From the NCBI GenBank assembly GCA_009694165.1, contig SHVP01000057.1, forward strand, positions 1 to 15,481: a stretch of 15,481 nucleotides of DNA, in the 5' to 3' direction. The translations under genes and the position numbers were made by a program. The notes under the pieces were generated by a model, which saw only the letters and a list, made by a program, of their open reading frames with translations, did not search any database and had not been told where the DNA came from. Of this stretch, positions 1-15,481 are shown in pieces. The stretch is from Alphaproteobacteria bacterium (GTDB lineage Bacteria; Pseudomonadota; Alphaproteobacteria; SHVP01). Within the stretch, counting starts at the first letter, position 1. Every line of letters starts with the position of its first letter.

Positions 1-27
1 CATATCGCCGAAAGCCTGGTCCCCGGC

Positions 28-109
28 TCCTCATCCTGAGCCGCGCGCCTCTCCTTCGAGACGCAGCCAAGTGGCTGCTCCTCAGGATGAGGGCGCGCGA
101 GTCGAAGGA
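28..109. repeat. nested palindromic intergenic repeat, rhizobial type
   Basis: Perfect 12-bp inverted arms CCTCATCCTGAG (29-40) and CTCAGGATGAGG (81-92) enclose an inner hairpin GCAGCC-AAGT-GGCTGC (63-78). A further inverted pair, TCCTTCGA (52-59) and TCGAAGGA (102-109), crosses the outer arms, so alternative folds are possible. From memory, sequences of the form CTCATCCTGAGGAGC...TCTCGAAGGATG are dispersed in many copies in Bradyrhizobium/Rhodopseudomonas-type genomes between genes. Here it lies about 125 bp beyond the stop codon of the multicopper oxidase gene. The palindrome is seen directly; the family assignment is from memory. Confidence 0.7.
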
Positions 110-233
110 CGCTTCGCTCGGCCGGGGTGACGATTGAGGAATACGAGGGACTCATCTGTTGGCGTCGATCCACTAGGGATCGGACCCGAGTCGTCGTCCG
201 TTTGGGTGCGCGGAAGGCCTTGGCGGCGGCGCG

Positions 234-1826
234 TCAGACGTATTGGACCGACGTCATCATGCCCGCTTCCTGGTGGTAGGAATTGTGGCAGTGGAAGGCC
301 CAACTTCCGGAATTATCCGCGTCGAAGGCAACGGTGACCGACGTTTGCGGCGGGACCATCACCGTATCGCGCCGTGCGCCATTGATTCGCTTGCCGGCGA
401 TCTCCACGACCTGAAAGACGGTACCGTGCAGGTGCATCGGGTGCGCCATGCCGGTGTCGTTGCGCATGACGATCTCGACGCGCTCGCCGAGGGCGACCAG
501 AAGGGGCCGATCCTTGCCAAAGACGGCCCCATTCATGGTCCAGATGTATTTTGCCATATCGCCGCCGAGCGCGACGGTGTGCGTGCGGTCGACGGGACGA
601 AGCCGCAGCGGAGCGAGCGGCTGGAGCCGCGGCTCGAGGTCGAGGCCGACCACGCCGGCCTTGGCCGCCGCCTGATCCGAAACCCGGTCGATCCGGCCTC
701 CCTTGGACGCGAGGATGATCCCGGTGCGCACGGTGTCCCCCTCGCGCTGGGCGAGGATCGGATACGCACCCGCGCCCGCGGGCAGGCGGAGGCGCACGTC
801 GGCGCGCTGTGCCATCGCCAGCGGGAACTGCCGGCCCTTGACCGGAAGGATCGCCTGCCCGTCGACGGCGATCAGCTCGCCCTCCAGCGCGCCGAGGTCG
901 ACAAAAAAGTTGGTCGACGCGCTGGCGGCGATGATGCGCAATCGGACGCGCCCGCCCGCCTCCACCTGAACCACCTCCGGATCGTCGAGCGTGCGGTCGT
1001 TGGCAAGATAGGCGTCGAAGTCGATGTCATTGAGGTCCATCTGCATGCCGGCCATCGCATCGTCCGTCTTCGGTGGGGGTGCCCCAGGGGCTGCGGACAT
1101 ACCGGGCATGGCGGGCATCCCGGCCATCCCCGACATCCCGGCCATCCCCGACATTCCGGCCATTCCCGACATTCCGGCCATCCCGGTCATCCCCGCCATT
1201 CCGGCCGGCTTACTCTCGCCGGCTGCGCCCGCATGGTGACCGCCGCCCGCTGAAGTGGCTTCGGGCGAGCCCTTTTGCCCGAGTTCGGCCAAGATCTCGT
1301 CGGGATTGCGGAAGGTGAAATCATTGAGCATCACCACGACCTCCTGCTCATCGAGGTGCCGCTCGGCGGGATCGCGGATGATCAGCGGCGCGGCCAACAG
1401 CCGCTGCATTTGCGACAGGCTGAAATGGGTGTGCATCCAATAGGTGCCGGGCTCGGTCAGGCGAAAGTCGTAGACATACGATGTCCCCGCCGGGATGGGG
1501 TCCTGCGACAGCCCCGGCACGCCGTCCTGATGGCTCGGCGGAGTGAGGCCATGCCAATGGACAAGCGTCGGCTCGGCAATCTTGTTGGAAAGGCGGACAT
1601 AGAAGGATTCGCCGGCGACAAACTGCGCGCCGCGCCGGCCGTCCGACCCAACCAGCCCGTAGACGGTGGCGGCCTTGCCCTTCACGTCGATGACGCGCGT
1701 CACCACATCGATGGCCCGCAACGCGGGGGCACCCGCCGCCCAGGCCGCGGGAGTGCGAAACGCCGCCACCGACGCGGTTGCCGCGGCGCGGGTGAGAAAC
1801 TGTCGCCTCGATGCCATGTCGACCAT
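234..1826 (-). CDS. Tat-exported multicopper oxidase with Met-rich linker (CopA/FtsP-like)
   Basis: A 530-aa three-cupredoxin copper oxidase, probably periplasmic, of the kind that oxidises Cu(I) or organic substrates. The start at 1826 is preferred because GGGGG lies 5 nt upstream and it is followed by a twin-arginine signal, SRRQFL at residues 6-11. The reading frame is open further upstream without a better site. All copper-ligand motifs are present: HWHG (90-93), HTH (132-134), HPMHLHG (462-468), and HCHNSYHQEAGM near the C-terminus (512-523), giving the T1 Cys, His and axial Met plus the trinuclear histidines. Residues 210-243 are a run with Met at every third position (GMAGMS-type), preceded by a Gly/His-rich patch, as in copper-tolerance oxidases. 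Length is slightly below that of CopA/PcoA. No copper exporter or regulator gene is adjacent. The exact subfamily is uncertain because the HWHG and HTH contexts differ from classical CopA. Confidence 0.93.
   Translation of the reverse strand: MVDMASRRQFLTRAAATASVAAFRTPAAWAAGAPALRAIDVVTRVIDVKGKAATVYGLVGSDGRRGAQFVAGESFYVRLSNKIAEPTLVHWHGLTPPSHQDGVPGLSQDPIPAGTSYVYDFRLTEPGTYWMHTHFSLSQMQRLLAAPLIIRDPAERHLDEQEVVVMLNDFTFRNPDEILAELGQKGSPEATSAGGGHHAGAAGESKPAGMAGMTGMAGMSGMAGMSGMAGMSGMAGMPAMPGMSAAPGAPPPKTDDAMAGMQMDLNDIDFDAYLANDRTLDDPEVVQVEAGGRVRLRIIAASASTNFFVDLGALEGELIAVDGQAILPVKGRQFPLAMAQRADVRLRLPAGAGAYPILAQREGDTVRTGIILASKGGRIDRVSDQAAAKAGVVGLDLEPRLQPLAPLRLRPVDRTHTVALGGDMAKYIWTMNGAVFGKDRPLLVALGERVEIVMRNDTGMAHPMHLHGTVFQVVEIAGKRINGARRDTVMVPPQTSVTVAFDADNSGSWAFHCHNSYHQEAGMMTSVQYV
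1098..1199 (-). repeat. 18-bp tandem repeat encoding the Met-rich linker
   Basis: Read on the minus strand, this part of the oxidase gene repeats an 18-bp unit coding for GMAGMS about four to five times, with small variants (GMT, PAM, PGM) at the ends. It gives 12 methionines at every third residue. The copies differ only at a few third-codon positions, so length change by slippage is plausible. Confidence 0.85.
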
Positions 1827-1883
1827 ATTTGCCCCCGAAGCCCTGTTGATGAAGGTGCGAGGCGTGGGCCTCGTCGGACAAAA

Positions 1884-1892
1884 TAGTAGCAA
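1884..1892 (-). promoter_or_regulatory. candidate extended -10 promoter of the multicopper oxidase gene
   Basis: On the minus strand the sequence reads TGC-TACTAT: a TGn extension followed by a hexamer matching TATAAT at 4 of 6 positions. It lies about 58 nt upstream of the chosen start at 1826. No good -35 hexamer is found at the usual spacing, which an extended -10 can tolerate. If this is the promoter, it rules out the longer open frame beginning at 1892. Confidence 0.3.
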
Positions 1893-2013
1893 GATCGAGG
1901 AGCGTTGCGGAAGGATTTAGGCGGCTCGTCGTCCTGCGCGGCGACGGCGCGGCCGCGACCCCTCTTCCGGCGGCTCGCAGCCGGGAGCCGCGCGGGCGGC
2001 GTTCGCGGCGCGG

Positions 2014-2799
2014 CTAGCCGGACGATGACTGCGCAAAATCGAAGTAGGCGTACGGAAGAATTCCGTACTCGCCGTCAAACGGATAGCTCAGTTTGAGAAT
2101 AACCAGGAACACGGACATCGTGACGGAGCCGACAAGCGCCGACATGAGCAGCGGCACATAGACGTTGGGACCGCCAAAGAACCACGGAAAGATCATCGAG
2201 ATGACCGTTCCAACCACGGCGACGGCCCAGAGAAGGGGGGTAAGAGCGCCGAAGCTCAACCGGATGCGGTTGCCGCGCTGATCCCGAACGACCTGGAGCA
2301 GCTGCAGCGAATACTGGAATGCCGAGAGCTCCTTGTCCGTCTGGGGTTCGACCGCCAAATACGTGTAATAGACGTTGTCCAGGATCGGCGAGTTGCCGAA
2401 GTTGAGCGTGCGCCGGCGCATCTGCGGCCATTCGACCTCGGCGACATTTTGCGCGTATTCCCGGAGCTCCTTCCGGATCTCGGTCCGCGTCGCTTGGGGA
2501 AAGGCCGCGGCAACACGGTCGAGCGACGTAAGGGCATTGATCTCGACGATGATGTCCGAGCGAACGTCGTCGTATTTCTGGTAGACGCCAAACAGCAACA
2601 ACCCGATGTAGCCCGCGTAGACCGAGGAAAGGAACGCGTACGTAAATCCGCCGACGATATTGTTGACGATGAGTTGGGCCGGGGTGAAATAATAGTTCAC
2701 GATCAACGTTCCGAGCATCGCAATGAAGATGCCGCCGCCGACCGTCAGGAGAATCCCGGTGCCGACAGGCAGATCGTTGATCCATTGAATGAGTTCCAT
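2014..2799 (-). CDS. DUF4239 (bestrophin-like) membrane protein, copy 1
   Basis: A 261-aa polytopic inner-membrane protein. Hydrophobic segments lie near residues 13-35, 43-72, 185-206 and 214-236: two pairs separated by a soluble, mostly helical middle domain. That middle domain carries the family-like pattern E-x-N-A-L-x-x-L-D-R (86-95) and EWPQM (123-127). The C-terminus has LKLSYPFDG (235-243), repeated almost exactly in copy 2 (3239-4072). The architecture fits the DUF4239 family, described as bestrophin-related; a channel role is inference from that relationship. The ATG at 2799 has GGGAG 10 nt upstream and gives the same N-terminal start of homology (INDLP) as copy 2. Confidence 0.85.
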   Translation of the reverse strand: MELIQWINDLPVGTGILLTVGGGIFIAMLGTLIVNYYFTPAQLIVNNIVGGFTYAFLSSVYAGYIGLLLFGVYQKYDDVRSDIIVEINALTSLDRVAAAFPQATRTEIRKELREYAQNVAEVEWPQMRRRTLNFGNSPILDNVYYTYLAVEPQTDKELSAFQYSLQLLQVVRDQRGNRIRLSFGALTPLLWAVAVVGTVISMIFPWFFGGPNVYVPLLMSALVGSVTMSVFLVILKLSYPFDGEYGILPYAYFDFAQSSSG

Positions 2800-2990
2800 C
2801 AGTCTCTAACTCCCGTTCCGCCAGGCAACCCGCCTCAAGAAGGTGTCTGACCCGGCGTTCGCTCGCGTCGAACACTACGAATGTGCCGACCGCTTAGCAA
2901 TGCGATGGATTTCCCCTCGATGCGCGTCTCCTTTGCGCACGCCGCGCGCGCCGTGCTAGCTTGCGCCCGATATCCTCGTTCGAGCGGATC

Positions 2991-3182
2991 ATGCTCCATC
3001 CCACCCTGCAATGTCCCCAGTGCGCGCAGCGCGCCTTCATCGTCCCGAACGATCCGGCCGGGCTGGACAACGTTCACGGCGCGATCTGCCATTGTTGCGG
3101 CCATTACATGGACACGCAGGCGATCCGCCGCGGGCTGGAAGCGCTCGCCGCCGAAGAAGCACGGAAGGCGCGGCCCCGTTAG
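2991..3182 (+). CDS. small zinc-ribbon protein
   Basis: A 63-aa protein with CPQC at residues 7-10 and CHCCGH near residues 32-37, a spacing suited to one zinc site of the zinc-ribbon type. It ends with a helix rich in Ala, Glu, Arg and Lys. The ATG at 2991 places the first Cys pair close to the N-terminus, as is usual for small ribbons; an in-frame TTG at 2961 would add ten residues. The Shine-Dalgarno site is weak (GAGCGG, 3 nt upstream). A longer frame on the opposite strand overlaps it but shows no recognisable domain. It lies between, and on the opposite strand from, the two DUF4239 genes. Its function is unknown. Confidence 0.62.
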   Translation: MLHPTLQCPQCAQRAFIVPNDPAGLDNVHGAICHCCGHYMDTQAIRRGLEALAAEEARKARPR

Positions 3183-3238
3183 GCGCTGCATCGGCGGTCT
3201 CCTCGCGGCGCGACACTCCATATGTCGCCGCCTGGCCC

Positions 3239-4072
3239 CTAAGACGCGAACTCGATAAAGGGGGTCGGGGCAATGCCCTCGCCGCCCCCAAACGGATAGC
3301 TCAGCTTAAGCACGACCAGCACAACCGACGTCACCATGACGATCGAAAGCATCGACATGATCACGGCCGCATTGACATTGGGCGCACCGAACGTCCAGGG
3401 AAAGACGATCACGACGATCGTGGTCAGGATGGTGACCGACCAAAGCAGAACCGGCAGCGAGGTGTTGCTGCGCAAGATTCGGATTCCGCGATCGTTCCCG
3501 ATCCTGGTCACGAGTTTATGCGATATCTTCAGGATCTCCCGTTGCTTCTTGCTGGTGGCATCGACGGCGGCATAGACATAGTTCAAGTCGTCCAGCGCGG
3601 GGGTGGTCAGGGGATCTCCGCTGCGGGCCCGCATCTGCGGCCAATCGATCTCGATCACCTCGCGCGCGTAGCTCCGAAGGCTCTTGTGGACCTGGGCCCG
3701 CGTGCCCTCCGGCAGCGCACCGGCCAGACGGTCAAGCGCATAAAGGGCATTCGCCTCGCTTACGATCGTCGCGCGCACCTGATCATAGGTTTCGTACACA
3801 CCGAACAATAGAAAACCGATGAAGCCGGCATAGATATGCGACACGAACATGTACGAGAAGCCGCCGATCACATTGTTCAGGCCTAATTGCTGCGCCGGAA
3901 CGAGGCGCCGCACGATCGCGGTGCCGACGAGGGACACGACGGATGCGCCGCCCATCACGATCAGGGCCGATTGCCAGAGCGGCAGGTCGTTGAACCACAA
4001 CAGGACTGGCACGGGGGATCGAGCCCTTTCTTGAGCCTTCGCCGGGGAATCGGGCTGTGTGGCGGCAGCCAT
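3239..4072 (-). CDS. DUF4239 (bestrophin-like) membrane protein, copy 2
   Basis: A 277-aa paralogue of the 2014-2799 product, alignable along its whole length with an extra 20-residue N-terminus. Shared blocks include FNDLP (27-31; INDLP in copy 1), NNVIGGF (66-72), IYAGFIG (80-86), FLLFGVY (87-93), E-x-N-A-L-x-x-L-D-R (106-115), DWPQM (143-147), FPW (224-226), APNV and LKLSYPFGG (255-263). Hydrophobic pairs lie around 35-55/67-92 and 205-226/235-256, with the soluble middle domain between. The start at 4072 has only a very close GGGA; a GTG at 4012 would give an N-terminus matching copy 1, so the start is not settled. Two diverged copies in 2 kb suggest an old duplication or a two-subunit assembly; neither can be decided from sequence. 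Confidence 0.85.
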   Translation of the reverse strand: MAAATQPDSPAKAQERARSPVPVLLWFNDLPLWQSALIVMGGASVVSLVGTAIVRRLVPAQQLGLNNVIGGFSYMFVSHIYAGFIGFLLFGVYETYDQVRATIVSEANALYALDRLAGALPEGTRAQVHKSLRSYAREVIEIDWPQMRARSGDPLTTPALDDLNYVYAAVDATSKKQREILKISHKLVTRIGNDRGIRILRSNTSLPVLLWSVTILTTIVVIVFPWTFGAPNVNAAVIMSMLSIVMVTSVVLVVLKLSYPFGGGEGIAPTPFIEFAS

Positions 4073-4168
4073 CGTCCCGAGGGTGCCGGGCCGGCAGGCG
4101 ATTGTCTCGGTTATCCTAGGTCAGTCCCGCCCAATTTCAAATTCCAACGTTGGCGCCGGCCTGCCGTG

Positions 4169-4516
4169 CTAATTCCGGATGGCAATAACGGGCGGTTGGG
4201 CGTGCCTCAAAGCGTCCGCGGAGACCGTCGGGTGCAGCATCGCCCGAACTTGCTCGTCGTTACGGTGCCGATACCACCAAGCGGCGAGGTAACCGCCGGC
4301 AACGCCGCCGACGAGATAGGCGAAGTCGCCCGGAACGACGAAATGCAGGACAATCGCACCGACGATGACTCCTGCGCCGATCGTTGCCGCCTCTTCAGCA
4401 CTCATGCCGAAGAGAGAGGCCGTTGGGTTCGCATCGGGCGCCGCCGTTTGTGCAAGCGCCGGGATCGGGAGGGCGAGACATCCGGCCAGCAAGCCTACGA
4501 AAATCAGGTTTCGCAT
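4169..4516 (-). CDS. small exported glycine-zipper protein, W-W-Y family, copy A
   Basis: A 115-aa protein: signal peptide (1-22, cleavage after ALA), a short polar linker, then a hydrophobic hairpin. The hairpin comprises GAGVIVGAIVL (47-57) and VGGVAGGYLAAWWY (69-82), followed by a charged tail. Glycines recur every three to four residues, as in glycine-zipper membrane segments. The same layout and the ending A/N-W-W-Y recur in the genes at 11656-12009 and 13919-14233, so this is a paralogous family. I do not recognise a named Pfam family with certainty; glycine-zipper 2TM proteins are the nearest known type. ACGAGAGACG precedes the ATG. Single gene, facing away from its right-hand neighbour. 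Confidence 0.8.
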   Translation of the reverse strand: MRNLIFVGLLAGCLALPIPALAQTAAPDANPTASLFGMSAEEAATIGAGVIVGAIVLHFVVPGDFAYLVGGVAGGYLAAWWYRHRNDEQVRAMLHPTVSADALRHAQPPVIAIRN

Positions 4517-4770
4517 CGTCTCTCGTCCTTGGCTATGGCAACGAGCCGAATCGGGTCGCGCAGGCCACGAACGTCATCCGTCGCACGGGAGCCCCTTTGG
4601 TCTCCCGAGAGAAACACTTCCCACGAAGCCAACGGACCCAGGATCGCGCTCACCATACCGATAGTCGGGACGGCCTGCCATCGAATTCCAGGGCCCGGGC
4701 GTGGGTGCGCGCCCGGATCGGCACCCAGGTCCGCAAAGGCGCGAGCCCCTTCCCGATGACTCAAACATGC

Positions 4771-4799
4771 TTGACCCGACATGCCGGCGTTTGTCTTAT
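4771..4799 (+). promoter_or_regulatory. candidate sigma-70-type promoter
   Basis: TTGACC (4771-4776, 5 of 6 matches to TTGACA) is separated by 17 nt from TCTTAT (4794-4799, 4 of 6 matches to TATAAT). Transcription would begin near 4806, giving a leader of about 130 nt for the gene at 4934. The -10 lies inside the dyad at 4790-4805, so a protein bound there would block this promoter. Confidence 0.38.
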
Positions 4800-4805
4800 G
4801 TCAAA
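4790..4805 (+). promoter_or_regulatory. TTG-N8-CAA dyad, possible CRP/FNR-family operator
   Basis: TTTGTCTTATGTCAAA matches its own reverse complement at 12 of 16 positions. The TTG-N8-CAA spacing is that of CRP/FNR-family sites (FNR/FixK: TTGAT-N4-ATCAA). The first half is TTGT rather than TTGA or TTGC, one base off the FixK consensus. A TAACAT hexamer at 4828-4833 would put the dyad centre near -42, the class II activator position. Binding is inference. Confidence 0.3.
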
Positions 4806-4933
4806 GCGCGCGGTGGCTTATTCTGCGTAACATTCGGACCGCCGATCGAATGCAGCCACGGGTCGAGCAACGAGCCTGCGTCGTGGGGACCCATCCTGTT
4901 TCCTCGGCGCGCGACGATTCGGTGGAGGAGGCG

Positions 4934-5602
4934 ATGGACGTCATTGGACCGTTTGAACACGTCGCCCGCCGGCTTCTCCTTGGCCTTCTCGCGGTGACTG
5001 CGGCGGCCTCCGTCTGGCTGGGGGCGAGCATGCCCGCGAAGGCCCAGATGATGGGAGTGACGATGGCCCAGATCGCCGGGCCTTTCGCGGGTCGGATGGG
5101 ACCCGGCGCCCCCGGCATGACGGCGCCCTACGGCTCCCAGGCCGGCGCCTTCGCCCATCTCATGCAGGGGACCCAGATGATCATGCCTTCGATGCCGCGT
5201 ACGATCGCGGGCTTGAGCGGCATGAGCATGGCCAGCTCCACCCAGACCGCCGCGGCGCCCGGCCCCATGCTCGGCCCCGGCATGGAGAGCATGGGAACCA
5301 TGGCGCCGCATCCGCGGATTCGGACGGGCGATGCCGGCGAGGCGGGCGACGTGGAAAAACCCGAAGCCGGAGAAATCGGCGACAGCTTTTGGGAGATCAT
5401 GATTGGCGCCTGCACGGGCGGCGCCTTCATCGGCGCCTATGCCATCGCCAATGCCCCCGCCCCCGTGGCGGCGGCGGGCGTTGCCGCGCCCGCGGCGGCA
5501 ACCGCGATCGTCTCGGCGATGGCGGTGGGCTGTGGCCTCGGCGTGGCCACCGCCGGCGTCAGCCTGGGCGCCGTCATGGGCTGGCGCCGGTTGCGCCGCT
5601 AA
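4934..5602 (+). CDS. Met-rich exported protein with C-terminal membrane hairpin
   Basis: A 222-aa protein starting at the ATG behind a strong GGAGG (4924-4928, 5-nt spacing); the upstream open frame lacks such a site. Residues 1-38 form a long signal peptide or anchor ending in A-K-A. Residues 39-123 hold 15 methionines (MMG, GMT, MIM, SMP, GMSM, GMESM), with few Cys or His, a composition seen in copper-handling proteins. An acidic stretch (133-149) leads to two glycine/alanine-rich hydrophobic segments (about 153-173 and 192-216), then a basic WRRLRR end that should stay cytoplasmic. The C-terminal hairpin resembles, in type, the glycine-zipper proteins elsewhere in the window. Function is unknown; a copper link is inference from methionine content only. 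Confidence 0.8.
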   Translation: MDVIGPFEHVARRLLLGLLAVTAAASVWLGASMPAKAQMMGVTMAQIAGPFAGRMGPGAPGMTAPYGSQAGAFAHLMQGTQMIMPSMPRTIAGLSGMSMASSTQTAAAPGPMLGPGMESMGTMAPHPRIRTGDAGEAGDVEKPEAGEIGDSFWEIMIGACTGGAFIGAYAIANAPAPVAAAGVAAPAAATAIVSAMAVGCGLGVATAGVSLGAVMGWRRLRR

Positions 5603-5647
5603 CGGGAGCACGGCCGCGGCGTCGCTGGCATTTCGCCGGCGGGCAGG

Positions 5648-5664
5648 GCTGCCGCTACGGCAGC
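5648..5664. terminator. hairpin between convergent genes
   Basis: Perfect 7-bp stem GCTGCCG-CTA-CGGCAGC with a 3-nt loop, located where the plus gene ending at 5602 meets the minus gene ending at 5655. The loop is the minus gene's stop codon. There is no T-tract on either side, so intrinsic termination is only possible, not shown. Confidence 0.3.
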
Positions 5665-6095
5665 GTGACGTCGTTCGTATCGGCCTGCCCCGAGAGCCGG
5701 GCCCGGATATACGACCAGGAAAGACCGACGGCGAACACGTTGGCGAGCACGACCAGCACGATGGTGATGATCGTCCCCAGGCTCAGGTGCTCGATCAATC
5801 CGATGTCGATCGTGAGCCAAACGAACGTGGCGAAAAACAACAGCCAAACCGCGATCCCGAGGGCGCCGAGCGAGCGGTACGTCGCGAGAACGAAGGTGGC
5901 GTAAAGGATCGCGAGGAGGATGCCGATCAGGATCTTGAAGATCCAGTTGCCGGAGGTCGAGCCGATGACCCAATGGACGTAGGAGTAGCCGCTCGGATTG
6001 TAGGTGGCCAAGACCATCAGCATGGCGGACAGCCAACGCGCGACAATTCCCGGAAAACCGAAGGAATCAGGCATCGCCAAGGAATCTGGGGCCAT
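5655..6095 (-). CDS. DUF6524 family membrane protein, copy 1
   Basis: A 146-aa protein with four hydrophobic segments (about 18-30, 52-72, 79-102, 106-126). It has the conserved first-segment motif LATYNPSGYSYVHW (29-42) and the C-terminal motif GLSWSYIRARLSGQ (124-137), followed by an acidic D-x-x-D-V tail. This is the pattern I associate with DUF6524. The ATG at 6095 has GGGG 7 nt upstream; an internal ATG at 6074 is less well placed. It follows the Mic60-like gene by 55 bp on the same strand, so the two are probably co-transcribed. A paralogue is encoded at 7247-7684. The biochemical function of the family is not known to me. Confidence 0.87.
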   Translation of the reverse strand: MAPDSLAMPDSFGFPGIVARWLSAMLMVLATYNPSGYSYVHWVIGSTSGNWIFKILIGILLAILYATFVLATYRSLGALGIAVWLLFFATFVWLTIDIGLIEHLSLGTIITIVLVVLANVFAVGLSWSYIRARLSGQADTNDVTLP

Positions 6096-6150
6096 GAGCT
6101 TGCCCCACCCCTCGGCGCCGCCCGAGCGAGCAGGCGGACGCCGTCACGGG

Positions 6151-6963
6151 TCAGTAGCTGGCCATGAACACGGAGCGATTACGCGACAGTCGCGTGGTGG
6201 CCAACTTGTCCAGCAACGTCAACATTCGGACTGCGGCAATGCGGGCAGTTGCCGCCTTGATCCAGGGCTTCGCCAGCTCCGCCGGCCGGCCGGATAGCTT
6301 GCTGAGGGCTGCAATGGCACCGGCGAGGTCGCTCGAATTGAGGGCAGTGTGCGCCTCCAATACGGTCTGCCCGGTGGGATCCTTGACTTCCAGCCGATGC
6401 ACAAAGGCATGCAGTTGCAAGGTCGACGCGGCGGACAACATCAGGCGGTCGAACCAGCTCCTGTTCGGATCCACGATCTCACGCAGCATGATCTCGTTGG
6501 CCAGGCGGGAGAAGCTGGCCCGCAACTGGGGCACCGTTGGCACGCCGGTTTCGCTAAATGACGCGATCGCTTCAAGGGATTTCCTCATGTCGGGATCGTC
6601 GGACACGACACCGCGGAGCGTCGCCAGTTGAAGGCCGAACGGCGCATCGGATTCGAGGGCGGGCCGCAGTTGCGCGACGCTCAAGACAAGAACTCGGGCC
6701 GAGACCGCATCGCCGTAGATCTTTGGCGACCAGATCGGCCCAGTCAATGCGACGACGATGCCGACGATCGAGAGGAAGACTGCGGCGGTTGCCTTGTTGA
6801 GCGGCCGCTTGGCGTGCCGATCGCGTCCGGCCGCGGCTTCGTCAGTTGCGCGGGACGGCAAGGGCTCCTTGTCGGCGTCGACCGCCGCCCGATCGCCTTT
6901 CCCGGACGGCACTGATTCAGCCGGCTCGCCTTTCTTTGGATCTTTGGGATCTTTGGTCACCAC
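6151..6963 (-). CDS. Mic60/mitofilin-like inner-membrane protein, short form without coiled coil
   Basis: A 270-aa protein. The GTG at 6963 is chosen because GAGGAGG lies 6 nt upstream; the frame runs on to 7044 without such a site. Residues 1-55 are charged and cytoplasmic, 59-76 form one transmembrane helix, and the rest should be periplasmic. LSVAQLRPALESDAPF (from about residue 91), GVPT-x-x-x-L-R-x-x-F (about 140), W-F-D-R-L (about 170) and the terminal block LAGAIAALSKL...PWIKAA-x-A-R-I-A-A resemble the C-terminal part of alphaproteobacterial Mic60-like proteins (COG4223). Those proteins act in cristae or intracytoplasmic-membrane shaping. They normally carry a long coiled coil after the membrane helix; here only about a dozen residues separate helix and core. 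They also usually neighbour heme-biosynthesis genes, absent here. Probably co-transcribed with the DUF6524 gene downstream. Confidence 0.68.
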   Translation of the reverse strand: MVTKDPKDPKKGEPAESVPSGKGDRAAVDADKEPLPSRATDEAAAGRDRHAKRPLNKATAAVFLSIVGIVVALTGPIWSPKIYGDAVSARVLVLSVAQLRPALESDAPFGLQLATLRGVVSDDPDMRKSLEAIASFSETGVPTVPQLRASFSRLANEIMLREIVDPNRSWFDRLMLSAASTLQLHAFVHRLEVKDPTGQTVLEAHTALNSSDLAGAIAALSKLSGRPAELAKPWIKAATARIAAVRMLTLLDKLATTRLSRNRSVFMASY

Positions 6964-7129
6964 TGTGTGCCTCCTCGAGTGCCTGGCCGGTGCCGCCTCG
7001 CACCGCCCCCCGACACCCGTATCACCCGCGAATCCGCAGATCAACGGGCAAGATCAAGAAGTCGACAATATTCGCATGATCGCACAGTCGGACCGTCCTT
7101 TCCTAGTGCAATCCCGCCCCGCCACGGCG

Positions 7130-7158
7130 ATGACGAAGCGCCGGACTTGGCATACAAT
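7130..7158 (+). promoter_or_regulatory. candidate promoter of the DUF6524/PH-domain pair
   Basis: ATGACG (7130-7135, 4 of 6 to TTGACA), a 17-nt spacer, then TACAAT (7153-7158, 5 of 6 to TATAAT). Transcription would start near 7165, about 80 nt before the ATG at 7247. It lies in the divergent region shared with the Mic60-like gene. Confidence 0.42.
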
Positions 7159-7246
7159 CCTGCGACCGGCGCGAATGTGAGAGGCCGAACGCGGCTGATT
7201 TCCGTTCGGCTCGCGCGACGATGGCGATCAAGCGAGACCCTGCCCC

Positions 7247-7684
7247 ATGGCGACCAAGCAGCCTTTCAATCTATCGGGCCTGCCGAGCCGATTCGTATTC
7301 AGTCTGCTGGTGGTGTTCGCGACCTACAATCCGAGCGGCTACTCCTTCTATCACTGGCTGATCGACGTCAATAGCGCTTTGATTTCGTTGAAAATATTTA
7401 CATCTCTCCTGGTGATCATCCTCTATTACGCGATGTTCCGGGTCTTGTACGCCGCGTTTCGCCTTTCCGGGCTGGTCGCCGCGAGCTTGGCGGCCCTTCT
7501 TTTCAGCTTCCTCTTGATCACGCATAGTCTGTCCCAGGGCTCGGGATCTGAATGGTCCTTCTATTTCTTGCTGGCGCAGTATGTTGTCTTGTTTTCGTTG
7601 GCGATTGTTTTGGCGTTCGGCCTGTCCTGGTCGCACCTGATCCAACGGCTCACCGGGCAGCAGCAAAAGCGCTATGTTCGATGA
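7247..7684 (+). CDS. DUF6524 family membrane protein, copy 2
   Basis: A 145-aa paralogue of the 5655-6095 product. It shares FATYNPSGYSFYHW (24-37) and GLSWSHLIQRLTGQ (125-138) and has the same four hydrophobic segments (about 14-28, 44-66, 74-93, 106-127). It lacks the acidic tail of copy 1 and ends in KRYVR instead. The middle of the gene (about 7370-7660) is visibly richer in A and T than its neighbours. The ribosome site is weak (GCGAGA). Its stop overlaps the start of the next gene as ATGA (7681-7684), which indicates translational coupling. Confidence 0.85.
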   Translation: MATKQPFNLSGLPSRFVFSLLVVFATYNPSGYSFYHWLIDVNSALISLKIFTSLLVIILYYAMFRVLYAAFRLSGLVAASLAALLFSFLLITHSLSQGSGSEWSFYFLLAQYVVLFSLAIVLAFGLSWSHLIQRLTGQQQKRYVR

Positions 7685-8130
7685 TCGGGATTCGGTATCG
7701 GGAACATGTCATGAGGGGCCGCCACCACTCCAAAGAAGACGGCCGGGCCGCCGCCACCGCGGAACAACCCCTCGTCGCGGTCGGCCTCGGGGGTCGCCTC
7801 GAGCTGACGGATGGAAGTCTCCGGATCGTCAAGGGCGGCGTCATCGGCCACCTCGTCACTTTTCTCTGGCTCCAACACGGCATGATGGAAAAACGGATTG
7901 CGCTCGCCAGCGTGACCTCGGTCGAGATCGTGACGCCGACGTTTCTTCCAGACTTCATCCGCGTGACCTACGCCGGGAGCCCGCCTCAGACGGGTCGATA
8001 CCTCGCGGACAGTCTCGCCGAGAACGCGCTGGTGATGAACGTCGTCGACAACCGGGCCTTTCACGAAATCGCCAAGCGCATCGAGCAGGCGATCGCCATT
8101 CCCGTTCGATCCGGAACTTCGAAGACCTGA
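7681..8130 (+). CDS. small bacterial PH-like domain protein
   Basis: A 149-aa soluble protein. The start is set by the ATGA overlap with the DUF6524 gene; an internal ATG at 7711 is an alternative. From about residue 37 the sequence runs GGRLELTDGSLRIVKGG, then a hydrophobic turn, EKRIALASVTSVEI, a strand with IRVTYAG, ALVMNVVDN, and a final amphipathic helix FHEIAKRIEQAI. This beta-rich order with a closing helix, and the phrases 'L-x-I-T-S-V-x-I' and 'N-R-x-F-x-x-I', fit short bacterial PH-like domains (DUF4429 type). Such domains are often membrane-associated by partner binding. It has no signal peptide, so it probably acts on the cytoplasmic side next to the coupled membrane protein. The fold call is by pattern only. 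Confidence 0.7.
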   Translation: MIGIRYREHVMRGRHHSKEDGRAAATAEQPLVAVGLGGRLELTDGSLRIVKGGVIGHLVTFLWLQHGMMEKRIALASVTSVEIVTPTFLPDFIRVTYAGSPPQTGRYLADSLAENALVMNVVDNRAFHEIAKRIEQAIAIPVRSGTSKT

Positions 8131-8291: not shown

Positions 8292-9545
8292 ATGCCTTCA
8301 GCCTTTCCCAGCATCAGTCGCGCGCGCGCATGCGCCGCACGTCTGCGATCCCCGTGTCGCGGCCGGCGCCGGCTCATGGTGCCGCTCGGTGTGGCGGCGG
8401 CGCTGTTGGCGGCCGTCTCAGCATCGGAAACTCGGGCCGCCGAGTTGTTCGAGCCACCCACGGGCCAGCAGGAGCCGCGCCCCTTGTTCGGTCCCGGCGT
8501 GCAAGGCCTCTACGAGGACGCTCGCACCCGGATATTCGAACCCGCCAGGATTGCAGCGGCTCAGATGCTCGGGAATCCGGCGACCCAGGCGGCGATCGAT
8601 CGGGCCTCCGGCACGATTCGGCAGTTCGCCGAGACGGTGAATGCCGACCTGGCCCGCACGGCGGAAGCCATCGAAAGTTTTCTGTCACGGCCGGAGGTCG
8701 ACCATTCCATCAAGGCGGCCGAGGCATCGGCTCGTCGCCTCCGGGTCGCGTTGCGGCGACGGGTCGTGGAACCATGGATGCGGGCGGCCGAGGAAACGCT
8801 CGTCGCCCCCGAGGGCGCAACGGCTCACGTTGACGCCGAAGGGGCACTCAGCCCGGCCGCGCCGATCTTCATGGCCGCGCCGCCGCGCGTGCCGGGCGGC
8901 GACGGCACCGGCGGCTTCGAGGACAATGACCCGCTCGAACCCATCAACCGCGCGATGTTCAGCCTCAACAACGGGCTGCAAATGACAGTGATGGAGCCGG
9001 TTTCGAATTTTTATATCCGGTCGACAACGCCCCCGGTGCGTAACGGCATGCGCAATTTCTTCGCAAATCTGCGCGAGCCGGTGACGGTCGTCAGCAACCT
9101 GATCGAGGGCAGGTTGGACGGCGCCGGCAACGCGACGGCGCGGTTCGGAATCAACACGGTCCTGGGTATCGCGGGCGTCCTCGATCCGGCCGCCCAGATG
9201 GGCTTCTCCGCAGCTCCGCGCAATCTCGAGCACACGTTGTGCGCCTTCGGCCTGGCACCCGGTCCGTACGTCGTTCTGCCGATCCTCGGTCCGGCGACCG
9301 TACGTGACTCCGTCGGCAGGATCGCGACGGTCGTCGCCTATTTCCAGGTGATGGGCGCGACCATCTATATCCCGTACCGCCTCACGGACATCACTCTACA
9401 ATATGCGGATCGGCGCGATCGGATGAGGTCCGTGAGCGCGATGTCGATCGATCCTTACGTGGCCCACAGGGCGCTCTACCTGGCCACAAGGACCCTGACG
9501 TGCGGCGATCAGGCCAAGGCGGACCAAGAATTGTTCACGCGGTGA
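8292..9545 (+). CDS. mlaA: MlaA/VacJ-like outer-membrane lipid transport protein with long N-terminal extension
   Basis: A 417-aa protein. Residues about 211-400 carry the MlaA pattern: DPLEPINRAMFSLN (213-226), RNGMRNFFANLREPVT, the stretch RFGINTVLGIAGVLDPA, FGLAPGPYVVLPILGP, and RDSVGRI. MlaA removes mislocalised phospholipid from the outer leaflet of the outer membrane and passes it to MlaC. Unusual points: a signal peptide with a basic n-region and hydrophobic core at 29-43 ends in TRAA without a lipobox Cys, whereas classical MlaA is a lipoprotein. About 160 extra residues (50-210), mainly amphipathic helix, also precede the domain. No mlaBCDEF genes are nearby. The ATG at 8292 is used; an ATG at 8376 would give a shorter signal peptide. 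Convergent with the next gene, 6 bp apart. Confidence 0.88.
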   Translation: MPSAFPSISRARACAARLRSPCRGRRRLMVPLGVAAALLAAVSASETRAAELFEPPTGQQEPRPLFGPGVQGLYEDARTRIFEPARIAAAQMLGNPATQAAIDRASGTIRQFAETVNADLARTAEAIESFLSRPEVDHSIKAAEASARRLRVALRRRVVEPWMRAAEETLVAPEGATAHVDAEGALSPAAPIFMAAPPRVPGGDGTGGFEDNDPLEPINRAMFSLNNGLQMTVMEPVSNFYIRSTTPPVRNGMRNFFANLREPVTVVSNLIEGRLDGAGNATARFGINTVLGIAGVLDPAAQMGFSAAPRNLEHTLCAFGLAPGPYVVLPILGPATVRDSVGRIATVVAYFQVMGATIYIPYRLTDITLQYADRRDRMRSVSAMSIDPYVAHRALYLATRTLTCGDQAKADQELFTR

Positions 9546-10102: not shown

Positions 10103-11266
10103 TCAGTCATTTGCGCCTTTGATCGGCTTCTCCTTCTGCAACAACCGCACAAAAAGGCCGCTGGATGAAGAGGCGTCCTCCGCGCGGTTGAGGGTGCGCG
10201 CCATCGTCGGGTTTCCGGCCTCGATCCCTCGCAACCGGGCGTCACCGCCCGACGCCGGGACGCCGGCCGCATGTTCCACGTCTCCAAAGACCCGTGCGCT
10301 GACGAATTGGGTCAGGTCGACGAGAAACCGCCAGACCTCGCCCAGAGCGGCAACAACGACGGTCATCGATTCCCTGATTGAGAAGCCTCGCTCGGCGCTC
10401 GTGTTGCCTTGCAGCATGGCGTGAGCCACCGCCTCCGACAAACGAACATCGGCCTTCTCGCTCACGACCACACCAAGCGACGTGCAGGTCGTGTGATACT
10501 TGCGGCTACCGTACAGCCAGCCGCCGTCGGCAAGGGTGATCTCGCGCAGCGTGTAGGGAGCGTTTTCATTGAGCGCAGCCAAGGCAATCGGACGGGAGAT
10601 GACAGGAACGAGATCGACCTCCTCTCGCTCAAGCAGAGCATTGAGGTCGTCGTTGCGGAATGGCTGATAGGCGATGAAAAGAGCGGCATCGGTCTCGCCG
10701 GAAGCGACCCGGCTCAATGCCCGCGATCCGCCGAAATGCTTCCGATCCACATTGTCGAGCGCCGGATCCAGGGCGCGCAGAATCGCGAACGTCTCGGCCA
10801 CGCGGCCCGATTCGGGGCCGATGTCCAAGGTTACAGGGCGGGAACGCCGAGGCGAGACCAGATCGTCGTAAGTCTGAATTGGCGATCCCTTGCGCACGAC
10901 CGCCACCAGACAGGCGGGAATGCCGCCATAGAATTCCAGCCGGTCGAAATTCTCCGGGTCCCGGCGCAGGCGGTCGACGAAGAGGTCCCTTTGAACGAAG
11001 CCCACGCTGCGGGCATCGATCCGCACACGTCTCAAGACGTCGATATCGCCGTTCGTTTGGGTCAAATCGTATTGGAATCGGTCGGACAACTGCTGGCGGA
11101 GGTTCGGCCCGAATGTCTCGAAACTCGTCGCCTGCCAGGCGCTGACGAGGATCGTCCCCTCGCCCGCGGCACCCGGCCAAGCCAAGGCGCCGACGCAACC
11201 GCCGACGAGCACACCAAGAACGTGGGCGCGGAAACCTTTTCCGTCCGTCGTCGCAGACCACCGCAT
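10103..11266 (-). CDS. TAXI-type periplasmic substrate-binding protein, orphan
   Basis: A 387-aa exported protein. The start at 11266 is chosen because a promoter at 11294-11323 would begin transcription about 20 nt upstream, excluding the longer frame (to 11341), and because it gives a clean signal peptide (core about 17-30, cut near AAG). The mature part opens with a substrate-binding-like beginning (GTILVSAWQATSFETFG). It also has VGFVQRDLFVDRL, FYGGIPACLVAVVRKGSPI, YDDL, DIGPESGRVAETF and SGETDAALFI, typical of the two-lobed TAXI/TRAP or ABC binding-protein fold. After the fold come about 80 residues including a predicted helix (ESMTVVVAALGEVWRFLVDLT) and a low-complexity Ser-rich tail. 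No transporter permease is adjacent, so it may serve a distant transporter or act as a sensor. Ligand unknown. Confidence 0.75.
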   Translation of the reverse strand: MRWSATTDGKGFRAHVLGVLVGGCVGALAWPGAAGEGTILVSAWQATSFETFGPNLRQQLSDRFQYDLTQTNGDIDVLRRVRIDARSVGFVQRDLFVDRLRRDPENFDRLEFYGGIPACLVAVVRKGSPIQTYDDLVSPRRSRPVTLDIGPESGRVAETFAILRALDPALDNVDRKHFGGSRALSRVASGETDAALFIAYQPFRNDDLNALLEREEVDLVPVISRPIALAALNENAPYTLREITLADGGWLYGSRKYHTTCTSLGVVVSEKADVRLSEAVAHAMLQGNTSAERGFSIRESMTVVVAALGEVWRFLVDLTQFVSARVFGDVEHAAGVPASGGDARLRGIEAGNPTMARTLNRAEDASSSSGLFVRLLQKEKPIKGAND

Positions 11267-11293
11267 GGAATTCCCCGGCCGGCTGAACGGGCG

Positions 11294-11323
11294 ACTATAC
11301 ACAATGCCGATCTCGGTTGTCAC
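11294..11323 (-). promoter_or_regulatory. promoter of the TAXI-like gene
   Basis: On the minus strand GTGACA (11323-11318, 5 of 6 to TTGACA) is separated by 18 nt from TATAGT (11299-11294, 5 of 6 to TATAAT). The expected transcription start near 11286 leaves a leader of about 20 nt before the ATG at 11266. Confidence 0.55.
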
Positions 11324-11655
11324 CATAGGGTCTGAACTCACCTCGGAGCCAGAGGGACATCAAAGCATGATCTTTCCGGATTGAACCGGCTGCCCCGGGG
11401 GCATTTTGCGGCGCGGGCAGGAGCGGGGCGCAGCGCGCAGCGAGGCCTATGGGCAAGCCCCGCAACATTGGGCGCCATGCGGGGATCCCATCCTGGCTCG
11501 CGCCCCCGGACCGGCTATTGTCGGCAGGATATCTCTAGAATTCACCGCCGGTGCGTTGTAGCATCGCACGACCGGTTGATGGGATGAGCTTGCGGATGGA
11601 TGCCCTTGGAACAGGGCTGAAGTCTTCGACATCGCGGTAGCTGGGGAGAAATATC
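11324..11655 (+). other. 332-bp divergent intergenic region
   Basis: No gene is supported here. It holds a 7-bp inverted repeat CCCCGCA/TGCGGGG (11458-11484, 13-nt loop) and a short GC palindrome followed by TTTT (11393-11407). The ribosome site of the next gene is GGGGAG at 11643-11648. No convincing plus-strand promoter was found. Confidence 0.5.
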
Positions 11656-13055: not shown

Positions 13056-13742
13056 ATGCGAAAGCTCTTGTGCGTCGCCGTTATCGGGGCGATGACGGTC
13101 GTCCCTGCTGCCAGCCGGGCGCAGCAACCGGCGCCGCCTCCTGTCTCGAGCGGGTTGACCGGGGGAGAGATCGTTGCACTCACGATCGTCGCCGCCGCCG
13201 TCGCGGCCGCGGCTTGGTATGCGCTGGCCGGAACTACCATGGTCGTCAACGGCGGTCGCGCCGCGATGGCCGGGGCTGGCGGGGCTGGCGCGGCTGACGG
13301 CGCCGCGGCAGCCGGAGGCGGGATGGCGATGGAAGCGGCGGCCGCGCGTGCGGCGGTGGCCGAGGCGGCTGTGCCCGCGGGTGGGCGAGCCATGGCGGCC
13401 GAGGCGGCTGTGCCCGCGGGCGGGCGGGCCGTGGCGGCCGAGGCGGCTGTGCCCGCGGCCGAGGGAGCCATGGTGGCCGAGGCGGCCGCGCCGGTAGAGG
13501 CGGCGGCAGCGGCTGCGCCGGCGGCTGAGGCTGCGGCAGGTGGGGGCATGGCTGGCGGCGCGGCCGGGGCCGGCAACGGGGCCATGGCCGGCAACATGAT
13601 GGGGCAAATGCGTGCCGCGGGCATGCGAATGGCGCCGCGCGGCGCCGCAATGGATGGCGCCGCGATGCCCATGGTCATGGGCCAGCATATGGCTCGCATG
13701 GGCAACGCGGGCATGGGCGCTGCCGCCGGCGTGGCGCCCTGA
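13056..13742 (+). CDS. exported Ala/Gly/Met-rich low-complexity repeat protein
   Basis: A 228-aa protein with a start supported by GGGGG 8 nt upstream. Signal peptide 1-22 (cut near R-A-Q), a Pro-rich linker, and one hydrophobic segment (38-60). A long low-complexity region follows, including three 13-residue repeats beginning AEAAVPAGG (102-140), and then a Met-rich C-terminus (GNMMGQMRAAGMRM, MPMVMGQHMARMG). The signal peptide and Q-Q-P start of the mature part resemble the W-W-Y family copies B and C, but the second glycine segment is replaced by the repeat region. Large open frames on the opposite strand here are shadows caused by the GC-rich repeat. Function unknown; methionine clusters suggest possible copper contact, which is inference. 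Confidence 0.75.
   Translation: MRKLLCVAVIGAMTVVPAASRAQQPAPPPVSSGLTGGEIVALTIVAAAVAAAAWYALAGTTMVVNGGRAAMAGAGGAGAADGAAAAGGGMAMEAAAARAAVAEAAVPAGGRAMAAEAAVPAGGRAVAAEAAVPAAEGAMVAEAAAPVEAAAAAAPAAEAAAGGGMAGGAAGAGNGAMAGNMMGQMRAAGMRMAPRGAAMDGAAMPMVMGQHMARMGNAGMGAAAGVAP
13359..13487 (+). repeat. 39-bp tandem repeat inside a coding region
   Basis: GCCGAGGCGGCT starts at 13359, 13398 and 13437, exactly 39 bp apart, and a near-copy follows at 13476. Each unit codes for 13 residues (AEAAVPAGGRAMA type). The first two units are nearly identical at DNA level, pointing to recent duplication. Confidence 0.88.
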
Positions 13743-13918: not shown

Positions 13919-14233
13919 ATGAGAAACGCGATGCCAAAGTTGCTTGCGGCTCTCGTGATTTTGGCCACGGCCATCCTGCCGCTTTCGGCGGAGGCGCAAC
14001 AGCCCACCGATCCGCCCAGTCTCCGGGGTGCTCCGATGAGCGAAAACAAAGACGGCGCCCGGGCAATGGCAATCGGTGCGGGGCTCGCGATCGGAGCGAT
14101 CATCGGCAGCTCGTTGACATCGATTCGCGCAACGACCACCCTCGGCGCGATTGCCGGCGGGTTGATCGGAAACTGGTGGTATAACGAGAGCCTCGGGGCG
14201 CCCGCGCTCAAACCCGGCAAGCCGACCCCGTGA
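13919..14233 (+). CDS. small exported glycine-zipper protein, W-W-Y family, copy C
   Basis: A 104-aa paralogue of copies A and B. Signal peptide 1-26 (cut after AEA), a polar Pro-containing linker, then AMAIGAGLAIGAIIG (49-63) and LGAIAGGLIGNWWYNE (75-90), and a Pro/Lys tail. The A-I-G-x-G-x-x-I/A-G-A segment and the G-x-W-W-Y-N ending match copy B closely. The ATG at 13919 has AGGAAGG 11 nt upstream; an ATG at 13931 is also possible and would still give a signal peptide. Its stop overlaps the GTG of the next gene as GTGA (14230-14233), so the two are translationally coupled. Confidence 0.8.
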   Translation: MRNAMPKLLAALVILATAILPLSAEAQQPTDPPSLRGAPMSENKDGARAMAIGAGLAIGAIIGSSLTSIRATTTLGAIAGGLIGNWWYNESLGAPALKPGKPTP

Positions 14234-14763
14234 CGATCGTGCGCACGTTTCTCCGCGGAAATCACGCATCCGGCGACCGGCGATTGCGGCCGGGGTGCCG
14301 AGCGGACCGCCATGGGGGTCCGCTCAGGGCGATCGATCCCGTTCCGAGGGCGATCGGCCGCAACCGGTCCTTCGTCGCAGCCGCGCTGTTGTTGGTGACG
14401 GTCCTGTTCTGTCCGACGGACCCTTGGGCGGCGGAATCCGCCGCGGACAAGGAGCGGCACACCGTGATCCTCGGGCTCACCGCGACGCAGTTGGCAATAG
14501 CCGCAGCCGTCGGAGCCGGGCTCGGGGTGACGGCCGCGGTCGTGTCCGGCAACGCCGCCGTGGGTACCGGTGCCAGCCTGCTTGCGGCCGTCTATATCGC
14601 CCATCTGGCCGCCGAGGCTGCCATCGTCGGGGGAGTCTATTTCTTCTGGCCCTGGGGGGCGGAGCCGAAGCAGCAACCGGAACCGGCCCTTGCGCACAGG
14701 GCTGCCGAGCCACGCCTGGTTGGCCTCGAGTTCGCCGGAAGGACGCGACAGGTCCTCCCCTGA
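14230..14763 (+). CDS. membrane protein with glycine/alanine-rich helices, coupled to copy C
   Basis: A 177-aa protein starting at the GTG of the GTGA overlap. An unusual Arg-rich N-terminus (1-46) precedes a hydrophobic signal or anchor (47-61) ending near WAAES. A second part (about 78-140) has Gly/Ala-patterned hydrophobic segments: LGLTATQLAIAAAVGAGLGV, then ASLLAAVYIAHLAAEA and IVGGVYFFWPW. A short polar tail follows. The order signal, linker, glycine-zipper segment, and an aromatic ending (Y-F-F-W-P-W) makes it a distant relative or partner of the W-W-Y proteins. No Met, GTG or TTG start just before the hydrophobic core is available, so the long basic n-region appears to be real unless the gene starts elsewhere. 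Confidence 0.65.
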   Translation: MTIVRTFLRGNHASGDRRLRPGCRADRHGGPLRAIDPVPRAIGRNRSFVAAALLLVTVLFCPTDPWAAESAADKERHTVILGLTATQLAIAAAVGAGLGVTAAVVSGNAAVGTGASLLAAVYIAHLAAEAAIVGGVYFFWPWGAEPKQQPEPALAHRAAEPRLVGLEFAGRTRQVLP

Positions 14764-14924
14764 CCTCGCGCAAGCGCATCGCGCTCGGAGTTCGGACGGG
14801 TGCACGTGACTGCAGTGGAGGTTTCGTATCTTGATTTTCGCCGCGTGCTTTTTCGCGGTCTTTCCGGCGGGCGTCGCCGATGCCGATGACCGAACAACTG
14901 CCAGGGTCTCGTCGCCGACCTGAG

Positions 14925-14944
14925 CATTGCTAGGCCATTGCTAG
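14925..14944. repeat. direct repeat CATTGCTAG x2
   Basis: CATTGCTAG occurs at 14925-14933 and 14936-14944, one helical turn (11 bp) apart, about 75 bp left of the tRNA fragment. Paired short repeats at this distance from an attachment core are typical of integrase-arm or excisionase sites. The role is inferred. Confidence 0.5.
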
Positions 14945-14970
14945 ACGCTTCCCCGCCGTGAAATTCCTTT

Positions 14971-14994
14971 TACCTATTAATACCTATTAATAAG
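14971..14994. repeat. AT-rich direct repeat TACCTATTAA x2
   Basis: TACCTATTAA is repeated back to back (14971-14980, 14981-14990) and followed by TAAGG. This is an abrupt AT-rich island in GC-rich DNA, lying immediately left of the tRNA fragment. Confidence 0.6.
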
Positions 14995-15015
14995 GTGTGC
15001 AAAATTTCCTCGGGT

Positions 15016-15060
15016 TTCCTAATCCTGGGGTCGTGGGTTCAAATCCCGCCGGGCGCGCCA
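15016..15060 (+). pseudogene. 3' fragment of tRNA-Arg(CCT): putative integration-site junction
   Basis: The sequence begins in an anticodon loop TTCCTAA (anticodon CCT), continues with the 3' anticodon stem TCCTG and variable loop GGGTC, then a T arm GTGGG-TTCAAAT-CCCGC, and ends with acceptor strand CGGGCGC, discriminator G and CCA (15058-15060). The expected 5' acceptor GCGCCCG, D arm and 5' anticodon stem CAGGA are absent. Upstream is unrelated AT-rich DNA; CGGGT there pairs only partly with the 3' stem. A break in the anticodon loop with an intact 3' half is the usual footprint of tyrosine-recombinase integration into a tRNA gene. The element then lies to the left and chromosome to the right. 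An intact copy would be expected outside the window on the left. Confidence 0.75.
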
Positions 15061-15380
15061 TTGGTGTGCTGTTCTCTGTCAAGGTTTACGCCCTCTCAAA
15101 CTGAGACACTACCCGGCCGCCCGGCATGGAAGCCATCCCTGAACCGGGACGCTGCGGCGCCCAATCTCCCCTCCAACACAGCCCATCGGTGGAATGCACG
15201 CCCCCAAAGCGCCGGCATATTGCCTGCCGGGCGGTATTGGGGCACGGTCAACCCCGTTGAAGGAACTCAAACGGGGAATTCCAGCTCAAATAATCTGCGG
15301 ACGGACTTGGCCGGCCACGCTGGTAAAAAGCTCCCTCTCAAACTTACATTCAATCTGGACCACCCCATGGAGGCCGATCA
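15061..15380 (+). other. 320-bp region between tRNA fragment and carbonic anhydrase
   Basis: No gene is supported. It includes a small inverted repeat TCTCA-AAC-TGAGA (15094-15106), CCGGCA/TGCCGG (15212-15230), and the dyad at 15253-15274 described separately. The ribosome site of the following gene is at its right end. Confidence 0.5.
15252..15276 (+). promoter_or_regulatory. dyad CCCCGTTGA-N6-TCAAACGGGG, hairpin or FixK/FNR-like operator
   Basis: The arms CCCCGTTGA and TCAAACGGGG are complementary apart from one bulged base, enclosing AGGAAC. The core TTGA-N6-TCAA (15257-15270) fits the FixK2/FNR half-site rule TTG(A/C)-N6-(T/G)CAA. AATAAT at 15289-15294 (5 of 6 to TATAAT) would put the dyad centre near -38 to -40, slightly closer than the usual -41.5. 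It could equally be an RNA hairpin; no T-tract follows it. Confidence 0.33.
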
Positions 15381-15481
15381 ATGGCTGGATTTAACGACGA
15401 CGAACGCGTCCTTGCCCGTTTCCTCGACAACAACAAGGAGTGGGCGGAACGCGTCCAACTCGAACGCCCCGGCTTCTTCGA
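15381..15481 (+). CDS. beta-class carbonic anhydrase, N-terminal fragment
   Basis: The first 33 codons of a gene cut by the window edge. GGAGG at 15369-15373, 7 nt before the ATG, is a strong ribosome site. The translation contains RFLDNNKEWAERVQLERPGFF, which fits the N-terminal helix of bacterial beta-carbonic anhydrases (pattern N-x-x-W-A-x-x-x-x-x-x-x-P-x-F-F). The zinc ligands (CSDSR and H-x-x-C) lie beyond the edge, so catalytic competence cannot be seen. The enzyme interconverts CO2 and bicarbonate in the cytoplasm. It sits on the presumed chromosomal side of the tRNA junction. Confidence 0.72.
   Translation, partial: MAGFNDDERVLARFLDNNKEWAERVQLERPGFF

Follow-up and report, generated by a model that had tools for sequence, protein, structure and literature searches.

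In the Islander scheme, a genomic island consists of an intact transfer RNA (tRNA) gene (tDNA), a displaced fragment of that gene, and an integrase (PMC4383910). By its criteria, the intact tDNA shares the replicon and orientation of the fragment at a distance of 2 to 200 kb, and the fragment avoids conserved coding domains. Among the 3919 candidates given there, 3760 had 3' fragments and 2083 had anticodon-centered sites, and a second source states that partial tRNA genes arise from such insertions (PMC9897764). Here we analyzed a 15,481-nucleotide (nt) stretch of an alphaproteobacterial genome (contig SHVP01000057.1; hereafter "the window," meaning this stretch at its full length, to which all window coordinates refer), which carries the 3' half of a tRNA-Arg(CCT) gene. 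This half-tRNA is very probably attR, i.e., the displaced end of an integrative element that recombined within the anticodon loop of tRNA-Arg(CCT).

A second described system involves the Escherichia coli gene argW, which we take to be a tRNA-Arg(CCT) gene. The KplE1 prophage lies in it, and the KplE1 integrase acts at core and arm sites (PMC2951348). KplE1 resembles the window in its insertion into a tRNA gene, but its duplicated 16-nt core, CTGCAGGGGACACCAT, looks like the 3' terminus of that gene rather than the anticodon loop. Because the published core differs in this way, KplE1/argW was dropped as a parallel for integration at an anticodon loop. Like the tRNA islands described for Islander, the window has a 3' tDNA fragment that extends to the gene end and a cut at the anticodon loop; unlike in those islands, the intact tDNA, the integrase, and the second end lie outside the window or have been lost (PMC4383910).

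The half-tRNA and its anticodon loop are as follows.

15016..15060, + strand: displaced 3' half of tRNA-Arg(CCT), sequence TTCCTAATCCTGGGGTCGTGGGTTCAAATCCCGCCGGGCGCGCCA; probable attR core plus chromosomal half; 43/43 identity to locus L010; 5' half absent.

15016..15022, + strand: anticodon loop TTCCTAA; putative overlap region for strand exchange; contiguous identity in the seven displaced halves compared, including that of the window, starts 2 to 7 bases 5' of the anticodon.

Read by eye, positions 15016 to 15060 correspond to tRNA positions 32 to 76, such that they open with the first anticodon-loop base and close with an encoded CCA. They comprise the loop (TTCCTAA), the 3' strand of the anticodon stem, the variable loop, and the T arm, followed by the 3' strand of the acceptor stem, the discriminator, and CCA; the T arm has five pairs, including one G-U (GTGGG/CCCGC). 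In Islander terms, the 45-nt fragment runs to the gene end, its identity begins at one of the recognized crossover sites (anticodon loop or T region), and no listed open reading frame (ORF) of at least 80 amino acids overlaps it (77 such ORFs were listed for the window, and the 18 main ones were examined with Pfam). ARAGORN called no tRNA anywhere in the window, and Rfam gave no match in the window at its gathering scores; at a lax threshold, Rfam returned just a weak match of the transfer-messenger RNA (tmRNA) model to the T arm (15032 to 15049; E = 0.043). The 5' half was absent from the whole window (32-letter pattern, up to 3 mismatches), and the 34 nt to the left of the anticodon agreed with an intact gene at 9 of 34 positions. 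The folding energy of the 45 nt alone was unremarkable relative to shuffles (z = +1.27). The initial annotation had described 45 nt that begin in the anticodon loop, end with the encoded CCA, have a paired T arm, and lack the 5' half, and these results, together with the 43/43 match described below, confirm that description.

A 43-nt pattern, CCTAATCCTGGGGTCGYGGGTTCRAATCCCGCCGGGCGCGCCA, was scanned across a genome contig collection and found in 12 stretches, all 12 of which lie in intact tRNA-Arg(CCT) genes called by ARAGORN. One of these genes (L010, from a metagenome-assembled genome titled Proteobacteria) carries the same base as the window at all 43 positions, and the other 11 differ from the window by one base (G for A in the T loop); the half-tRNA is therefore not a chance resemblance. 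By their titles, the 12 genomes belong to Rhodospirillales/Rhodospirillaceae (5), Defluviicoccus (1), Alphaproteobacteria (2), Proteobacteria (3), and Armatimonadetes (1), the last of which is perhaps a binning error. Together with the source organisms of the multicopper oxidase matches (see below), these titles point to an alphaproteobacterial origin for the window.

We also searched for the half, allowing up to 3 mismatches, in these 12 genomes, in 17 genomes of the order of G012 (Rhodospirillaceae bacterium SYSU D60014), and in 385 genomes from the class to which G009 belongs, a survey that by design misses genomes with a more divergent 3' half. In the class of G009, 19 of 385 genomes matched (G006, G007, and G009 were already among the 12), and a tRNA-Arg(CCT) 3' half was found in 28 genomes in total. 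Displaced copies lacking the 5' half were present in 4 of the 28 genomes, with six copies in all (one each in G012, G252, and G084, and three in G270). Contiguous tRNA identity extends beyond the anticodon on its 5' side by 3 to 7 bases in all six copies and by 2 bases in the window (the references for L046 and L054 in this comparison are approximations), and in each of the six the resemblance to a tRNA ends inside the 5' portion of the anticodon stem-loop. The loop TTCCTAA is the minimum shared by the displaced halves, which fits strand exchange within it. These data show that tRNA-Arg(CCT), cut at the anticodon stem-loop, is a landing site used repeatedly. Separately, two of the G270 copies (L058 and L059, contig G270:C242) stand in tandem, ~3.1 kb apart; a PemK/MazF-like ORF and an AAA/DUF4143 ORF lie between them, and no integrase match was found on that contig.

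The complete arrangement is present in G012. On contig G012:C11, an intact tRNA-Arg(CCT) gene (at 33410) and a displaced half (1889 to 1931) lie on the same strand, ~31.5 kb apart. The 31.5-kb stretch has integrase and defence-like genes at one end; the integrase (427 amino acids; Arm-DNA-bind_3, Phage_int_SAM_3, and Phage_integrase domains) is ~160 bp from the displaced half, and AGCAACCA repeats with 11-bp spacing occur near both ends. This island (L013, L061, and L062) shares with the window the target gene, the stem-loop, the orientation, and 11-bp-spaced repeats on the element side. The proposal of the initial annotation that the half-tRNA is an island end left by an integrase crossing over in the anticodon loop or T arm gains support from this arrangement, and the piece fits a crossover in the anticodon loop.

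The DNA immediately to the left of the half-tRNA, on what would be the element side, contains three further features.

14950..15015, + strand: AT-rich stretch (GC content, 0.39) adjoining the half-tRNA; probable attP arm of the element.

14971..14992, + strand: tandem repeat TACCTATTAATA, spacing 10; candidate integrase/excisionase arm site.

14925..14944, + strand: tandem repeat CATTGCTAG, spacing 11; candidate arm site.

The 65 nt to the left of the half have a GC content of 0.40, compared with 0.64 for the window, so AT-rich DNA does stand in place of the 5' half, as had been noted earlier. Exact tandem repeats (at least 9 nt, spacing 9 to 13) number five in the whole window, and two of the five fall within the 91 nt to the left of the half (CATTGCTAG at -91 and TACCTATTAATA at -45). 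When 120 nt were shuffled in dinucleotide blocks, at least one such repeat appeared in 0.1% of the shuffles and two appeared in 0 of 20,000, with a shuffle that is not strictly dinucleotide preserving and repeats that had been noticed before the test. At least one such repeat was present in 3.6% of real 200-nt pieces of the window and in 2.3% of those of the fetched loci. Against the latter rate, 6 of 25 200-nt flanks following the CCA of intact tRNA-Arg(CCT) genes contained one (L014, L017, L022, L047, L050, and L057, with L014 and L017 nearly copies of each other; the count excludes one 3-nt flank, one 74-nt flank, and one tRNA-Lys). Sites of excisionase are described in the literature as direct repeats separated by one turn of the helix (PMC7498355).

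The integration reading would involve the following steps. The element would bring a duplicate of the tRNA 3' half in its attP site. A tyrosine integrase would align this site with the tRNA gene of the chromosome and exchange strands within the seven-base anticodon loop. A working tRNA would be remade at the far end, to the left of the window, from the chromosomal 5' half and the 3' half of the element. The original chromosomal 3' half would be displaced to the opposite end, where the attP arm of the element would adjoin it on the left. We infer the integrase, the far end of the element, and the binding of the repeats by integrase and excisionase, all three. The attachment subsite scheme is said to come from Williams 2002.

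Several observations weigh against this reading. The window holds no intact tRNA-Arg(CCT) partner, as judged by ARAGORN and the 5'-half pattern. Its 18 main ORFs include no integrase or other mobility family in Pfam, and in a tblastn comparison of the G012 integrase with the window, every match had E = 1.1 or worse. Searches of viral contigs (two patterns) and of plasmids (with positions 14000 to 15481) revealed no phage or plasmid that carries this site. Regarding the relatives, G012 was the sole match in its order, with the half absent at up to 3 mismatches from 16 of the 17 genomes, and for five of the six displaced halves there was no integrase on the same contig. G252 and G084 gave the displaced copy as their sole match, with no match to an intact gene, and these two therefore corroborate the cut site rather than a live island. 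The flanking features are also unevenly shared. A repeat of at least 9 nt on the element side within 200 nt accompanies one of the six displaced halves (L027); the longest repeat is 8 nt at L046 and 7 nt at L058, and none was found at three. Beside L054, L058, and L059, the 65-nt stretch is no lower in GC content than its locus.

Of the alternatives, an old attR scar is compatible with the integration reading and has a substantial chance of being correct, though short of even. Here, most of the element would later have been deleted or rearranged, native envelope genes would now adjoin the site, and perhaps ~250 bp of the element (14764 to 15015) would be left. Such a history fits the 15 kb without a mobility gene (Pfam with 18 ORFs, PHROGs with 10 ORFs, and tblastn; PHROGs matched just two families, both of unknown function), the lack of an integrase on the contigs that carry displaced halves in G252, G084, and G270, and the apparent age of a gene pair in the window, MlaA and a binding-protein-like gene, based on equal contig sizes elsewhere (see below). 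However, no rearrangement junction was seen, an old island can also carry a conserved cluster, and GC content at third codon positions ranges from 0.68 to 0.86 among the genes with no step near 14763. We consider it improbable that the half is a tRNA-Arg pseudogene in place, its 5' half lost to an insertion or deletion that had nothing to do with site-specific integration. Although just the half was seen and no intact copy was observed, the cut at the anticodon loop is the same as in six other displaced copies, and repeats spaced by a helical turn lie on the element side.

A slightly smaller probability attaches to the half being attP within an element (a phage, a plasmid, or an island integrated elsewhere), with element DNA on both sides. 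According to the Islander report, a tRNA fragment is also present in attP (PMC4383910), but the site had no match in viral contigs (two patterns) or plasmids, and no phage-type gene or integrase was found beside the half-tRNA. The 177-amino-acid protein of the window had no match in viral contigs, and the binding-protein-like gene had none in plasmids. Positions 1 to 8000 matched 99 plasmid records, 26 of them conjugative; among the 20 matches listed, all cover the multicopper oxidase gene (65 to 71% identity), and thus they show that this family occurs on plasmids, not that the gene set does. A D-armless tRNA-like RNA gene (14994 to 15060) with a shifted acceptor stem was also considered, given that the 77 nt from 14984 to 15060 fold into a 7-bp outer stem, a middle stem, and the T arm (z = -2.09; 7 of 200 shuffles were equally stable). 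This fold was rejected, and its probability is close to nil, because its outer stem pairs the CC of CCA, such that the 3' end is not free; moreover, the 5' part agrees with a tRNA at the 9 of 34 positions given above, and the ARAGORN and Rfam searches yielded nothing beyond the weak T-arm match to tmRNA. Displacement by an integrative element, i.e., attR, is the most probable explanation for the half-tRNA.

With attR at 15016 to 15060, the DNA directly on its left is element DNA by geometry. How far the element extends bears on the following genes.

8292-9545: MlaA.

10103-11341: binding-protein-like gene; no match in Pfam.

We put the chances that the genes nearest to the half-tRNA on its left lie inside the element at even. 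It is doubtful that the MlaA, periplasmic binding-protein-like, paired bestrophin-like/DUF6524, and glycine-zipper-like genes, a set for outer-membrane maintenance that is usually regarded as housekeeping, travel with an integrative island inserted at tRNA-Arg(CCT). Homologues of MlaA and the binding protein were found on equally sized contigs elsewhere (350613 and 14432; 49 to 61% identity), and a third shared contig size (5369) belonged to homologues that were 100% identical and from the same species. The contig of 350,613 bp is that of P0014 and P0028, and P0008 (source ENA), from the same species, is 100% identical over 99% of the window protein. The two genes very probably stand together in those assemblies too, with equal contig size as the sole evidence, and on this basis the pair looks old. 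This suggests that the neighborhood itself is old and is either backbone or part of an old island. The initial annotation had extended mobility to the envelope genes; with no mobility gene in the 18 ORFs and an old-looking MlaA/binding-protein neighborhood, that extension was not borne out.

Other observations concern the same genes. An alignment of the binding protein found no match in the genome contig collection, in the 385 genomes sampled from the G009 class, or in 9 genomes of the order of G003, searches that included no known positive and so show little. In the protein collection, the protein encoded at 10103 to 11341 had 17 matches, one of which (P0011) carried PF12974. Two regions (2014 to 4072 and 5655 to 7684) hold paralogous pairs, with 44% identity between the bestrophin-like proteins and 34% between the DUF6524 proteins; DUF6524 was detected in 26 of the 385 G009-class genomes (21 above the cutoff). 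A tandem repeat with 39-bp spacing (13299 to 13571; six copies in register, 63 to 86% like the reference copy) sits in an alanine-rich ORF (13056 to 13742) with a GC content of up to 0.81.

The opposite side of the half-tRNA, putatively chromosomal, ends in a cut ORF.

15381..15481, + strand: start of a cut ORF (34 amino acids), possibly a beta carbonic anhydrase; putative chromosomal side.

The cut ORF had no match in Pfam. In PDB, it matched a designed NTF2-fold protein (E = 0.059) and carbonic anhydrase 5bq1 (E = 1.7; N-terminal register), and by tblastn against the fetched loci its best match was the N-terminal part of a carbonic anhydrase (L028; E = 0.18; 36% identity over 28 residues). 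Six records of the plasmid collection also matched (E = 0.1 to 8), one of which was annotated can. It is plausible from the sequence that the ORF encodes a carbonic anhydrase, and plausible too that, as had been proposed, the carbonic anhydrase is the chromosomal neighbor. Nine of the 12 relatives contain carbonic anhydrase loci, 15 in total, and 14 of these were fetched; none had a tRNA-Arg in its flanks of up to 1.5 kb, and these genomes are too distant for an empty-site comparison. Regarding conservation of either flank of the half-tRNA, the fetched loci gave just 14- to 33-nt blastn matches (E = 0.005 or worse).

Near the half-tRNA, the 7-base motif GGTGTGC was seen by eye on both sides in the same orientation (14994 to 15000 and 15063 to 15069), which may be chance. 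A terminator-like match at 15052 to 15070 was discarded, as it was no better than shuffles (1 versus a mean of 1.0). In the 320-nt gap on the right, CCCTCTCAAACT occurs twice (15091 to 15102 and 15333 to 15344), and an imperfect inverted repeat (15117 to 15131/15220 to 15234) lies between the two copies.

A half-tRNA scar is a textbook signature and an ordinary kind of feature, reflecting a well-known route of island entry. In the window, it marks a precise, probable island end point in an uncultivated lineage. Proof that the island includes the envelope genes would add the upkeep of membrane lipids to the list of exchangeable traits.
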